NCBI RefSeq assembly: GCF_036023875.1
Contig: NZ_CP107931.1
Span: forward strand, 4,340,001-4,404,000
DNA: 64,000 nucleotides
From: Mycobacterium sp. NBC_00419
GTDB lineage: Bacteria > Actinomycetota > Actinomycetes > Mycobacteriales > Mycobacteriaceae
Direction: 5' to 3'
Each line of letters begins with the position of its first letter. The first letter of the stretch is position 1. Shown piece after piece: positions 34,562 to 40,386 of this stretch. The notes below the pieces were generated by a model, which was not told the DNA's origin, did not search any database, and saw nothing but the letters and a program-made list of their open reading frames with translations. Both the position numbers and the translations under genes were made by a program.

Positions 34562-35473
34562 TTGGCGGGATTGGACTCCTGGACAGACGGGCCGACCAAG
34601 TCGGCGATCGTCGACTTCGTTGACCGCGTCACCACCGCGGGAACGGATTTCGTTGAGCCGCAGGCGCGTATCGCGGTCTTCGACAATGACGGCACGCTGT
34701 GGGTGGAGAAGCCGGCGTATGTCCAGCTGGACTTCCTGGTGCGCCGACTCGCCGAGCAGGCGGCCGCCGACGCGTCGCTGGCCGAACGGCAGCCCTACGC
34801 AGCCGCGGCTGCCGGTGACCTCGACTGGTTCGGCGACGCGGTCACCAAGCACTACGACGGGGACGATTCGCAGCTGACAGTCCTTGCCGGGGGCATTCTT
34901 TCGGCCTATCAGGGTCTGACGGTCGAGCAGCACGCCGAGCAGGTCAAGGCGTTCTTCGCCGACGCGCGACACCCGAGCTTGAACCGCCCGTACACCTCCT
35001 GCGGGTACGCACCAATGGTGGAGTTGCTGGGCTACCTCGAAGCCCACGGCTTCACCAGCTACATCGCCTCCGGGGGCGGTCGGGACTTCATGCGCCCGGT
35101 GACAACTCAGATGTACGGGATACCGCCGGAACGGGTGATCGGCAGCTCGGTGGGCCTGGACTTCACCGACGGTCACTTGGTGACCACGTCGCGGCCCGAG
35201 GTCCTCAACGACGGCCCGGCCAAGGCTGTGCGGATCTGGGGGCGCACGGGTCGACGGCCTATCTTCGCGGCGGGAAACTCCAACGGCGACATCGAAATGC
35301 TCCAGTTCACCGACGCGTCACCCGGACTCTCGATGAACATGCTCGTCCTGCACGACGACGAACAGCGCGAATTCGCCTATACCGCAGGCGCAGAACGTGC
35401 ACTGAACCTCGCGGCCGACTCCGGCTGGGCGGTGACCAGCATGCGTGGTGAGTGGTCGAGAATTTTCGCGTGA
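34562..35473 (+). CDS. HAD superfamily hydrolase
   Basis: A 303-residue phosphoserine-phosphatase-like HAD protein. Motif I is DNDGT at 41-45 (FDNDGTLWVEKP), motif II around ASGGGRDFM, and motif IV in AAGNSNGDIEML. A TTG at 34562 is the likeliest start, two bases after the sulfatase stop. Its end overlaps the FGE start. Such HAD proteins recur between sulfatase and FGE genes in actinobacteria; its substrate is unknown. Confidence 0.82.
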   Translation: MAGLDSWTDGPTKSAIVDFVDRVTTAGTDFVEPQARIAVFDNDGTLWVEKPAYVQLDFLVRRLAEQAAADASLAERQPYAAAAAGDLDWFGDAVTKHYDGDDSQLTVLAGGILSAYQGLTVEQHAEQVKAFFADARHPSLNRPYTSCGYAPMVELLGYLEAHGFTSYIASGGGRDFMRPVTTQMYGIPPERVIGSSVGLDFTDGHLVTTSRPEVLNDGPAKAVRIWGRTGRRPIFAAGNSNGDIEMLQFTDASPGLSMNMLVLHDDEQREFAYTAGAERALNLAADSGWAVTSMRGEWSRIFA

Positions 35474-36348
35474 CTGGTGACCTCGTCTGGATTCCCGCAC
35501 AGAGCGCCGCGCTCGGGTCCGATCAGCACTACCCGGAGGAAGGTCCGGTCCGGCAGGTCGATATCGAGGGTTTCTGGATTCAGCCCCGCCAGGTGACCAA
35601 CGCCGACTTCGCCCAATTCGTCGATGCTACAGGCTATGTCACGGTCGCTGAACGGCCGTTGGATCCCGCCGACTATCCCGATGCGCCGTCGGAGAACCTG
35701 CAGCCGGGTTCGATGGTGTTCCACCGCACCAGCGGGCCCGTGGACCTTCGGCACCTGAGCCAGTGGTGGAGCTGGACACCGGGCGCGTCATGGCGCAGGC
35801 CCGTCGGGCCGCTCTCCTCGATCGACAAACGTGCCGACCACCCCGTCGTGCACGTCGCCTACGAGGATGTCGAGGCCTACACCGCGTGGGCCGACCTTGC
35901 GCTGCCCACCGAATCCGAATGGGAGATCGCCGCCCGCGGCGGCCTCGGCCACACCACCTACACCTGGGGTGACGAACCGGAAGCGCCCGGTCAGCGGCTC
36001 GCCAACTATTGGCACGGTGAGTTCCCGTGGCGCCCGGATGCGGGTTACGGGCGCACCGCGCCGGTCGGCAGCTTCCCGCCCAATGGGTACGGACTGTTCG
36101 ACATGGCGGGCAATGTCTGGGAGTGGACCAGCGACTGGTACGTCGACACCCGCGCCGGGGACCCCTGTTGTGAGGCAGGCAGCTATGACGCCGGGCAGCC
36201 GCAGTTCAAGGTTCCGCGCAAGGTCATCAAGGGCGGCTCGTTTCTCTGTGCCGACAACTACTGCCTGCGCTATCGGCCGGCCGCCCGGCGGCCCCAGATG
36301 GTCGATACCGGCATGAGCCACATCGGCTTTCGCTGCGTGAAGCGGTAG
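35470..36348 (+). CDS. Formylglycine-generating enzyme (sulfatase activator)
   Basis: A 292-residue FGE/SUMF1 family enzyme that oxidises the sulfatase cysteine to formylglycine using oxygen and copper. Catalytic pair Cys260 and Cys265 in GGSFLCADNYCLRYRPAARR, with GNVWEWTSDWY and HIGFRCVKR, all hallmarks of active FGE. Very close to mycobacterial FGE at the C-terminus. GTG start at 35470 overlaps the HAD stop (GTGA). Confidence 0.92.
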   Translation: MTGDLVWIPAQSAALGSDQHYPEEGPVRQVDIEGFWIQPRQVTNADFAQFVDATGYVTVAERPLDPADYPDAPSENLQPGSMVFHRTSGPVDLRHLSQWWSWTPGASWRRPVGPLSSIDKRADHPVVHVAYEDVEAYTAWADLALPTESEWEIAARGGLGHTTYTWGDEPEAPGQRLANYWHGEFPWRPDAGYGRTAPVGSFPPNGYGLFDMAGNVWEWTSDWYVDTRAGDPCCEAGSYDAGQPQFKVPRKVIKGGSFLCADNYCLRYRPAARRPQMVDTGMSHIGFRCVKR

Positions 36349-37397: not shown

Positions 37398-39743
37398 GTG
37401 TGGATTCGTAACGTCGGGCCCATCGCTGGAGCGTGTGTGCTTGCTGCCGGCCTCTTCGTCGGCGGAACTGTCGCCACCCCATCTGCCCTGATGAGAGCCG
37501 CGGTCGCTCTCCCCGGCGGCGGTGGCGGTGGTGGTGGCAATGGTGGCAACGGCGACGGCAGCGGCAACGGCATCAAACAACACATTCCCGGTGGATTCGG
37601 CGGCGGTGGAGGCGGTGGATTCGGTGGCGGTGGCGGCGGCGGCATCAAACAACACATTCCCGCTGGATTCGGCGGCGGTGGGGGTGTCGGCGGTGGACGA
37701 CTCGCCCCCGGCGGACTAGGCGGCGGCGACGGCATCCGCGGCAACAACGGCAATGGCATTGGCGGCACTAACGGCCTCGGCGGCGCGAACGGGATCAGTG
37801 TGCCCGGCCGCAGTGCGGCCGCCCCGTCGGCCGCCAGTGGAGTTTCGGTGCCGGCTGCGATTGCCGCGGTGTTGGTGCCGGGCATGGACCCGGCGCTGAT
37901 CACGCAGAACCCCGACGGTTCGCTGGCCTACCTCGGAACAACACTGGTGGGGGTCGACACAGCGGACTGGTCATCGCCGGTTGTCATCAACGGTGTGCTC
38001 CAAATGTTGCACCCACCGGTGAACGTCCTCAAGCAACCAGGACCCGGGGACGGCATGTCCCCGGGCCAACCTGGCGGGATGGGCTGTGCCCAAGGCAATG
38101 CGTCGTGGTGTGGCGGTGGCGGCGACGGCGGCGAGAACGGCGGGGAGAACGGGAACGGGAACGGGAACGGGAACGGGAACGGGAACAACGGTAACGGGAA
38201 CGGCGGCAATAACGGCAACGGCGGCGGCGACGGCGGCGATAACGGCAACCACCATGGCGGCGGCAATAACGGCAACGGCAACGGCAACGGCGGTGGCGAC
38301 GGTGGCGATGGTGGCGACGGCGGTCCTGAGGTGCCGTCTCTGCCGTCGTTGCCGCAGGCGCGTCCGGATGTGTCGTTGCCGCAGGTGGTTCCGCCGGCGC
38401 AGGGGTTGACGCCGACTGTGCCGTTGCGCCCGGATGTGTCGTTGCCGGAGGTGACGCCGCCGGGGCCGCCGGATGTGTCGCCGATAACGCCGGGGAGGCC
38501 GGCGTTGCCGTCGTTGCCGCAGGCGCGTCCGGATGTGTCGTTGCCTGAGGTGGTTCCGCCGGGTCCGCCGGATGTGTCGCCGGTGACGCCGGGTAGGCCG
38601 GTGTTGCCGTCGTTGCCGCAGGTGCGTCCGGATGTGTCGTTGCCTGAGGTGGTGCCGCCGGGGCCGCCGGATGTGTCGCCGGTGACGCCGGGTAGGCCGG
38701 TGTTGCCGTCGTTGCCGCAGGTGCGTCCGGATGTGTCGTTGCCTGAGGTGGTGCCGCCGGGTCCGCCGGATGTGTCGCCGGTGACGCCGGGTAGGCCGGT
38801 GTTGCCGTCGTTGCCGCAGGTGCGTCCGGATGTGTCGTTGCCTGAGGTGGTGCCGCCGGGTCCGCCGGATGTGTCGCCGGTGACGCCGGGTAGGCCGGTG
38901 TTGCCGTCGTTGCCGCAGGCGCGTCCGGATGTGTCGTTGCCTGAGGTGGTTCCGCCGGGGCCGCCGGATGTGTCGCCGGTGACGCCGGGTAGGCCGGTGT
39001 TGCCGTCGTTGCCGCAGGCGCGTCCGGATGTGTCGTTGCCTGAGGTGGTGCCGCCGGGTCCGCCGGATGTGTCGCCGGTGACGCCGGGTAGGCCGGTGTT
39101 GCCGTCGTTGCCGCAGGTGCGTCCGGATGTGTCGTTGCCTGAGGTGGTTCCGCCGGGGCCGCCGGATGTGTCGCCGCTGACGCCGATGGTGCCGGCGCGC
39201 CCGGGTGCCTCGTTGCCTGAGGTGACGTCGCCGGTGCCGCCCGCGCAAGGGTTGACACCGACAGTGCCACTGGCCCCGAATGTGTCTCTGCCGCAGGTTG
39301 TTCCGCCCGGTTTCGGTGGTGGCGTGGCACCTCCTGGGACTGTGTTGCCGGGTACGCCGACTGTTCCTGGTGTGGGATTGCCGCCCGGTGCCGGCGGTGT
39401 CGTGACCCCGCCGGGGGCCACGCAACTGGGTATGCCGACCGCTCCGGGTGTCGGGTCGCCGCCTTCGGCAGCAGGTGCGGTACCTGGTGGGGTGCCGCTC
39501 ACTCCGGGTCAGGTCATTGGGACTGATCCGTTGGTGTCAAACAGCATTCAGCCCTTGCCTGGTACATTCGCTCCCGGGGCCGGACCGGTCCCGGGAACGC
39601 CCAGCGGTTCCGTCAGCGCTCCCGCTGGGGTCTATCCGGCTCCGGGCACGGCGCCTGATTCGCCGCCTACCGGGTCCGGCGGTGCCACGCAGTATCCGAT
39701 TCAGGCGCCGACCGGTTTGGTCGACCCTGCGATGTTCCCCTGA
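37398..39743 (+). CDS. Secreted Gly/Asn-rich and Pro-rich tandem-repeat protein
   Basis: A 781-residue protein of low complexity. An N-terminal hydrophobic segment (GPIAGACVLAAGLFVGG) could be a signal peptide or anchor. Next come Gly-rich stretches with two copies of GIKQHIP (about 38-95), a short folded-looking part (about 140-215) with two cysteines, an NGN/GGD-rich block (about 250-310), then the tandem repeats at 38427-39200, each 33 residues of RPDVSLPEVVPPGPPDVSPVTPGRP type, and a Pro-rich tail. It ends PTGLVDPAMFP, with no C-terminal LPXTG-hydrophobic-basic sorting signal. GTG at 37398 has AGGGGA upstream. The next gene, 16 bases on, is a sortase-like protein. Confidence 0.78.
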   Translation: MWIRNVGPIAGACVLAAGLFVGGTVATPSALMRAAVALPGGGGGGGGNGGNGDGSGNGIKQHIPGGFGGGGGGGFGGGGGGGIKQHIPAGFGGGGGVGGGRLAPGGLGGGDGIRGNNGNGIGGTNGLGGANGISVPGRSAAAPSAASGVSVPAAIAAVLVPGMDPALITQNPDGSLAYLGTTLVGVDTADWSSPVVINGVLQMLHPPVNVLKQPGPGDGMSPGQPGGMGCAQGNASWCGGGGDGGENGGENGNGNGNGNGNGNNGNGNGGNNGNGGGDGGDNGNHHGGGNNGNGNGNGGGDGGDGGDGGPEVPSLPSLPQARPDVSLPQVVPPAQGLTPTVPLRPDVSLPEVTPPGPPDVSPITPGRPALPSLPQARPDVSLPEVVPPGPPDVSPVTPGRPVLPSLPQVRPDVSLPEVVPPGPPDVSPVTPGRPVLPSLPQVRPDVSLPEVVPPGPPDVSPVTPGRPVLPSLPQVRPDVSLPEVVPPGPPDVSPVTPGRPVLPSLPQARPDVSLPEVVPPGPPDVSPVTPGRPVLPSLPQARPDVSLPEVVPPGPPDVSPVTPGRPVLPSLPQVRPDVSLPEVVPPGPPDVSPLTPMVPARPGASLPEVTSPVPPAQGLTPTVPLAPNVSLPQVVPPGFGGGVAPPGTVLPGTPTVPGVGLPPGAGGVVTPPGATQLGMPTAPGVGSPPSAAGAVPGGVPLTPGQVIGTDPLVSNSIQPLPGTFAPGAGPVPGTPSGSVSAPAGVYPAPGTAPDSPPTGSGGATQYPIQAPTGLVDPAMFP
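38427..39200 (+). repeat. 99-bp tandem repeats, eight units
   Basis: Units begin at 38427, 38526, 38625, 38724, 38823, 38922, 39021 and 39120. Units 2-7 are nearly identical at DNA level, differing mainly in GGT/GGG, GTT/GTG and one Ala/Val codon; the first and last are diverged. In frame with the protein, so copy changes keep the reading frame. Confidence 0.95.
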
Positions 39744-39759
39744 TGCGGGCGAGGACATC

Positions 39760-40386
39760 GTGACCCGCCGCGCCGCTGCCGCAGCGATCACGATTGTGTC
39801 GATCGCCCTGGCGTCGCCCGGAGCGGCTTGGGCGCAACCGGTTTCGGACAACGCGTCGGTGATGGTGATGCCGCTACCGGCCAGTCCACCTCCGGTCGAA
39901 GGCGCGGCCTTTGTTCCCGCTCAACTCGACATCCCGTCGATCGCAGTGACAGCCGTCGTCGCCCCGGTGGGGACAGTGATGGCCCCGGCGCCGTTCCTCG
40001 GGGGCGAGATGGTGCCGACGTTTGCCGTCCCGCCTGATGGCTCCACCGTCGGGTGGTGGGCCGACGGACCGATGGTCGGCATATCGGGAATGTCGATTAT
40101 ATTGGGGCACAATAAGATCGGTGGCTACGCGGTGTTCAACCGGCTTGGTGAGCTGCATGCCGGTGACGACGTCACGCTGTCCGACGGAACCGGCAACGCC
40201 CGAGCCGATTTCCACATCACCGGTGTAGTTGCCGGTGTTCCGAAGGGCGACCATGATGCGCTGCGGCGGGTGCTATCCGAGAATGCCGACAGCGCGCAAC
40301 TGGCGTTGATCACCTGCGGTGGCGACTTCGACCCCAGTTATCGGGCCAGCGCCGACAACGTCGTCGCCTTCGCTGCGAGGTCGTGA
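39760..40386 (+). CDS. Class F-like sortase
   Basis: A 208-residue exported transpeptidase-fold protein. Signal peptide about 1-26 (AAITIVSIALASPGAAWA). The sortase triad is complete: His117 (SIILGHNKIGG), Cys186 (LALITCGGDF) and Arg195 (YRASADN). The catalytic domain follows LDIPSIAV, the common first strand of classes E and F. GTG start at 39760 with GAGGA 6 bases upstream. Immediately after the repeat protein, so probably cotranscribed with it. Class F sortases in mycobacteria have no well-defined substrate. Confidence 0.85.
   Translation: MTRRAAAAAITIVSIALASPGAAWAQPVSDNASVMVMPLPASPPPVEGAAFVPAQLDIPSIAVTAVVAPVGTVMAPAPFLGGEMVPTFAVPPDGSTVGWWADGPMVGISGMSIILGHNKIGGYAVFNRLGELHAGDDVTLSDGTGNARADFHITGVVAGVPKGDHDALRRVLSENADSAQLALITCGGDFDPSYRASADNVVAFAARS

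Follow-up and report, generated by a model that had tools for sequence, protein, structure and literature searches.

Two adjacent genes in Mycobacterium sp. NBC_00419 raise the question of what a mycobacterial sortase recognizes, and how it could act on a neighboring protein that seems to lack a sorting signal. They lie within a stretch of 64,000 nucleotides (contig NZ_CP107931.1, positions 4,340,001 to 4,404,000 of the forward strand; hereafter the window), where the gene for an exported, Gly/Asn/Pro-rich repeat protein directly precedes that for a small sortase. The initial annotation had described the repeat protein as lacking a sorting signal, and this turned out to be wrong. The protein ends in YPIQAPTG (39693..39716, + strand), a proposed non-canonical sorting motif with predicted cleavage between T and G, plus eight residues, LVDPAMFP (39717..39740, +), and only the hydrophobic segment and the basic end of a full signal are missing. 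Motifs of this form are common to the upstream partners of related sortases, and the two proteins probably constitute a dedicated sortase and its single substrate, with transpeptidation at QAPT/G onto an amine of the cell wall.

Translation confirmed both reading frames of the initial annotation, 781 residues for the repeat protein (37398..39743) and 208 for the sortase (39760..40386), both on the + strand and 16 bases apart. Relative to the corresponding locus of another genome of the genus, G167, the ratio of nonsynonymous to synonymous substitution rates (dN/dS) was 0.25 for the signal peptide (39 codons) and 0.15 for the middle domain (87 codons) of the repeat protein, and 0.26 for the sortase (208 codons). 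Values of 0.15 to 0.26 point to selection at the protein level, and a non-coding frame was thus ruled out for the pair. The second protein scored 55.5 bits with the Pfam sortase family PF04203, against a curated cutoff of 26.6, and is the sole match in this genome of 5,615,436 bases. Its AlphaFold2 model has a mean predicted local distance difference test score (pLDDT) of 84.4, with 153 of 208 residues at 90 or above, and is confident from about residue 51 onward; the predicted fold is the sortase beta-barrel, and sortases make up all 50 of the PDB matches listed, with TM-scores of 0.42 to 0.51 normalized to query length. The catalytic triad noted at the outset was found complete, with His117 (40108..40110) and Cys186 (40315..40317) present in 45 of 45 aligned relatives and Arg195 (40342..40344), the third residue of the usual triad, in 27 of 45, so that the arginine is not fixed in the family.

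The unit is rare within the genus. A survey of 396 genomes with the sortase as query (E <= 1e-8) returned matches in seven, the window genome (G000) and G167, G268, G123, G162, G018 and G667. The sortases of G167 and G268, near-copies of each other, share 68% identity with that of the window and the one of G123 shares 54%, whereas the G162 match is a sortase of the ordinary class F-like type, with a DUF4397 protein as its neighbor. About 33 sortase residues are left in G018 (locus L014, 7172-7267), and G667 (L154, 5447-5620) retains a piece of some 58 residues in which the surroundings of the catalytic histidine differ. The unit thus appears intact in 4 of 396 genomes, and the two remnants are signs of its loss in mycobacteria. 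Two weak matches in G042 looked like chance in tblastn and were dropped. A protein search with the sortase yielded 62 relatives, among them entries from Mycobacterium sp., Mycolicibacterium porcinum, Mycolicibacterium sp. XJ870, Williamsia and Skermania.

In all four intact cases (G000, G123, G167 and G268) the sortase gene is immediately preceded by that of a repeat-type partner. This is the outcome of the co-conservation check that the initial annotation had called for, and it supports the idea of a dedicated surface-display pair. The partner gene of G268 is cut by the end of the contig but still includes the tail. The upstream genes of G167 and G123 encode Gly/Pro-rich proteins that correspond to the window protein in N-terminus, middle domain and tail and differ in their repeats. 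The N-terminus (residues 1-37, 37398..37508), judged by eye to resemble a signal peptide, is 79% identical in G167 and 65% in G123; for the middle domain (37848..38111; consensus PGMDPALITxNPDGSLxYxGTTxVGVDT) the values are 85% and 40%. Between the window and G123, 14 of the last 17 residues are identical, and the 143 residues before them align with a score of 126, no better than shuffled sequences (mean 106, maximum 147). A metagenome protein that runs from a partner into a sortase (P0049) also shows EYPVQAPTGLVD. Note that the G123 partner (L012) also has a second, partial copy of the motif, YPAQAPSD, some 30 residues ahead of the terminal one.

If the tail is a recognition site, related sortases should reveal how general it is. 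A family search with the sortase alignment gave matches in 135 of 401 genomes, from which we took 16 loci, 14 of them scoring above 150 bits and two with ordinary class F sortases (92-95 bits). Among the 14 related loci, all outside the genus, 12 have the motif [YFW]PxQ[AS]xTG close to the C-terminal end of the protein encoded immediately before the sortase, as FPVQAQTG, YPVQSATG, YPVQARTG (twice), WPVQAPTG, YPTQSKTG (twice, in near-identical loci), YPMQSRTG, YPVQSPTG, YPLQAGTG, FPVQAATG and YPIQAATG. In 11 of these 12 it is followed within 34-50 residues by a hydrophobic stretch and an Arg-rich end, and in one it stands alone; the hydropathy of the segment after the motif is weakest in L145 (1.26) and at least 1.78 in the remaining loci. 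The relatives thus appear to carry a full sorting signal in which QAxTG or QSxTG replaces LPXTG. The partners themselves range from about 110 to more than 1,300 residues, match no family and have no evident mutual similarity beyond the motif. The window protein has the QAxTG-type motif (YPIQAPTG) but not the hydrophobic and basic tail. A typical LPXTG substrate, which by the initial annotation would have made a dedicated pair unlikely, was not found with PF00746 in the window genome or with TIGR01167 in five carrier genomes. Near the units of L138 (7037-8752), L139 (2988-4694) and L145 (6636-8387) we observed large membrane-associated proteins, by eye one family, which we take to be DUF4012-like.

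Specificity was gauged with a DNA pattern written for the motif, TWYCCNNTNCARKCNNNNACNGG. It had a single match per genome in 13 of 14 carrier genomes, and every one of these matches lies in the upstream neighbor of the sortase; in the window genome YPIQAPTG is the only exact match, and the reversed pattern, used as a control, had no match in the 14 carriers. Within the genus 16 of 297 genomes had a match, comprising four of four carriers and 12 of 293 others, and among family genomes with other sortases it was three of 40. Taken together, 13 of 14 carriers compare with 15 of 333 others (Fisher p = 4e-15). A sweep of the 401 family genomes, which overlaps the other samples, gave matches in 11 of 12 carriers and in 14 of 389 other genomes (Fisher p = 5e-14). 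The off-target matches, 15 in the background samples and 15 in 14 genomes of the sweep with three genomes in both, were never followed by a hydrophobic and basic tail. Four of them fall inside a conserved regulator-like protein, and by eye several appear to be in the wrong frame. At L175, L178, L190, L191 and L192 the frame stops within 25 residues without such a tail; tail-less substrates may be among these five. The check for a neighboring sortase covered part of the off-targets. Of the matches in the window genome at two to three mismatches, L018 appears to lie outside any evident gene and the others were compared by tblastn only. A motif arising by chance was considered and rejected.

Class F, which the initial annotation had brought up, held as the nearest-matching class but not as a membership: the NCBIfam model NF033748 gives 82.4 bits, half its cutoff of 166, and the class E model 15 bits against a cutoff of 160. 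Seven members of the clade formed by the window sortase and its relatives scored 55-90 bits with the class F model, whereas five ordinary class F sortases reached 188-209 and the sortase of L013 reached 160. In a quick tree, 28 clade and 43 ordinary class F sequences are split by a branch with SH-aLRT support of 100; as these 71 rows contain no other sortase class, the tree does not imply a sister relation to class F. Scores below the cutoff and this branch together led us to file the enzyme as a neighbor of class F and not within it.

Ordinary class F loci offer a comparison for the partner as well. The set consists of 80 named class F loci (L026-L105), those kept out of 201 from the contig search with the sortase alone, and no mycobacterial locus is among them. 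In 70 of the 80, an open reading frame (ORF) with a transmembrane (TM) tail and a basic end terminates just upstream of the sortase. The motif PxGG[VA]x[TA]G, an expression written after inspection of the tails, precedes the membrane segment in 53 of these 70 adjacent ORFs, as opposed to three of 112 non-adjacent TM-tailed ORFs at the same loci, and is likely to be a class F sorting motif. The QA motif occurred in none of the 80 loci, nor was it found in the three ordinary class F loci examined alongside the relatives (L013, L150 and L151). Note that both motifs, P-x-Q-[AS]-x-T-G and P-x-G-G-[VA]-x-T-G, end in x-T-G, a match that would fit a common cleavage between T and G.

The mechanism that we favor would run as follows. 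Sortase and repeat protein would both be exported, and the sortase would recognize the C-terminal YPxQAPTG of its neighbor and cleave this motif at the T-G bond, the position at which other sortases cut LPXT/G. The new threonine end would then be joined to an amine, most likely that on the side chain of meso-diaminopimelate, either in peptidoglycan or in a precursor of it, diaminopimelate being the likely acceptor in the actinobacterial wall, and the long Gly/Pro repeat protein would end up fixed to the wall. What can be read directly from the sequences is the existence of a two-gene unit, the co-conservation of its members, a motif in common with full-signal relatives and the loss of the hydrophobic and basic part in mycobacteria; recognition, cleavage, transfer, the acceptor and the ability to work without a tail are what we infer from them.

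Several observations weigh against this interpretation. The association counts are partly circular, since the motif was read off the same loci in which it was later counted; the position and uniqueness of the match, a sole occurrence per genome beside the sortase, are not. The carrier G398 was missed by the pattern, having Trp in place of Tyr or Phe (WPVQAPTG), and in the near-identical loci L144 (5304-5735) and L146 (4690-5127) the partner has EPIQMPQTA and a membrane segment instead. Of 45 aligned sortases, 18 lack the triad arginine, by eye mostly those of the non-mycobacterial clade. P0065 shares N-terminus and middle domain with the repeat protein but, as translated, lacks the QAPTG tail, and the full context is found in only three distinct mycobacterial lineages, G167 and G268 being near-identical. 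Above all, the mycobacterial partners (window, G167 and G123) end 7-8 residues after the motif without a hydrophobic or basic end, and the partner in G582 (L147, 4251-5162; YPIQAATG-GTGA) ends after four, with the relatives L148 and L149 keeping a membrane tail. In known sortase substrates it is this tail that holds the protein at the membrane. The main doubt is therefore how a substrate without a membrane hold meets its enzyme, and it leads either to a reaction away from the membrane or to a shift toward trimming.

The putative mycobacterial substrates have kept the motif and lost the hydrophobic segment and the basic tail, and the tail-less partner of G582 possibly represents a second such loss. 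The window sortase begins with a signal-peptide-like sequence (39760..39834) in which, by eye, AWA before Gln26 resembles a signal peptidase I site. The combination A[WE]A with Q, E or H as the next residue occurs near the N-terminus of 29 of the 51 listed relatives (P0003-P0053), many of the others being truncated entries, and the mycobacterial sortase is predicted to be cleaved and released. In the sister clade, P0046, P0050 and P0051 start with lipobox-like sequences (LAGC, VAGC and LAAC), as do by eye four more loci (L136, L139, L140 and L145), as if these sortases were lipid-anchored. Tentatively, we may be dealing with a distinct QAxTG/QSxTG sortase class of mycolic-acid bacteria in whose mycobacterial branch neither partner is tied to the membrane any longer: the sortase would be secreted in soluble form, its substrate would end shortly after the motif, and sorting would happen at a distance from the plasma membrane, on the finished wall or at the outer envelope. 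We regard this wider scheme as possible, though rather doubtful in its entirety.

The alternative that survives best is that the sortase does read QAPTG but mainly trims its substrate by hydrolysis, or joins it to some target outside peptidoglycan, for instance a second protein. A substrate without a hydrophobic and basic tail and an enzyme with a signal-peptidase-I-like site, where the sortases of relatives instead have lipobox-like or membrane-anchor-like N-termini, would both suit trimming, but trimming offers no obvious reason for keeping a one-to-one pair. As for joining to another protein, the repeat protein has only three lysines among its 781 residues, which argues against pilus-like polymerization through lysine, and polymerization of the pilus type was rejected on this ground. 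We consider this alternative unlikely as a whole. Less likely still, the tail could be conserved for some other reason, such as export, binding or stability, with the sortase a relic or acting on an unseen target. The rarity of the intact unit and the remnants in G018 and G667 speak for such a relic, but the dN/dS of the sortase indicates purifying selection, and partners in other genera share the motif with the window protein and not the remainder. The initial proposal of an internal LPGT-like site, or of the Gly-rich region as acceptor, is very improbable: LPGTF and LPGTP do occur near the C-terminus of the window protein and LPGTF in the tail of G167, but by eye none is present in the C-terminal part of G123 or in P0049, the sites lie within the chain whereas sortase signals are terminal, and what the relatives have in common is the C-terminal QA motif.

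The repeat protein contains 163 glycines and 159 prolines, and its Pro-rich array (38425..39185) was resolved by Tandem Repeats Finder into units of 99 bp with 96% matches; the 33-residue repeat of the initial annotation is confirmed, and its count of eight comes close to the 7.7 copies measured. Searches of Pfam and NCBIfam at E values up to 1 assigned the protein to no family. A protein search with residues 130-245 returned zero matches, not even the protein itself, and one with the G123 partner returned only P0065 (66% identity over 26% of the query). A gene that by eye resembles a formylglycine-generating enzyme is found close to the pair in the window (35452-36348) and also in G167 (L010, 13653-14549), on opposite sides.

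Among known systems, the class F sortases of actinobacteria (NF033748) come closest, as the best-matching class with an exported partner directly upstream whose TG motif precedes a membrane segment, but the present clade lies below the cutoff and on the other side of a supported branch, and its partner motif is QAxTG/QSxTG and not PxGG[VA]x[TA]G. The streptococcal pilus motif QVPTG has the same Q-x-P-T-G form; the pilus enzymes are of class B/C in Firmicutes. The dedicated substrate of sortase B keeps its full sorting signal, unlike the window protein; the two systems share the principle of one enzyme with one substrate and a non-LPXTG motif, and differ in motif, family and phylum. The available part of one report describes Staphylococcus aureus SrtB as a sortase B with one dedicated substrate and the motif NPQTN (PMC3297441). 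Class E sortases of Streptomyces are likewise actinobacterial with an unusual motif, LAXTG according to the portion of the source at hand (PMC5148588), but here the class E score is far below the cutoff and the motif differs.

In the sections available of a 2022 review, mycobacteria seemingly have no sortase genes, and no sortase activity is reported for any of them (PMC8875947). The accessible part of a 2026 study on all five Actinoplanes sortases leaves the class F substrates open and describes proteins adjoining two class F genes that have the right layout and no recognized motif (PMC13251363). Among the papers listed by our literature search, none had QAxTG or QAPTG beside a sortase or named a sortase-substrate pair in mycobacteria; PxGG[VA]x[TA]G was not included in it. 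If our reading is correct, some mycobacteria, held to be free of sortases, have a dedicated wall-anchoring pair. The QAxTG/QSxTG and PxGG[VA]x[TA]G motifs make the gap in class F substrates testable by peptide cleavage, and if a sortase substrate can do without a membrane segment, the site at which sorting must happen would come into question.

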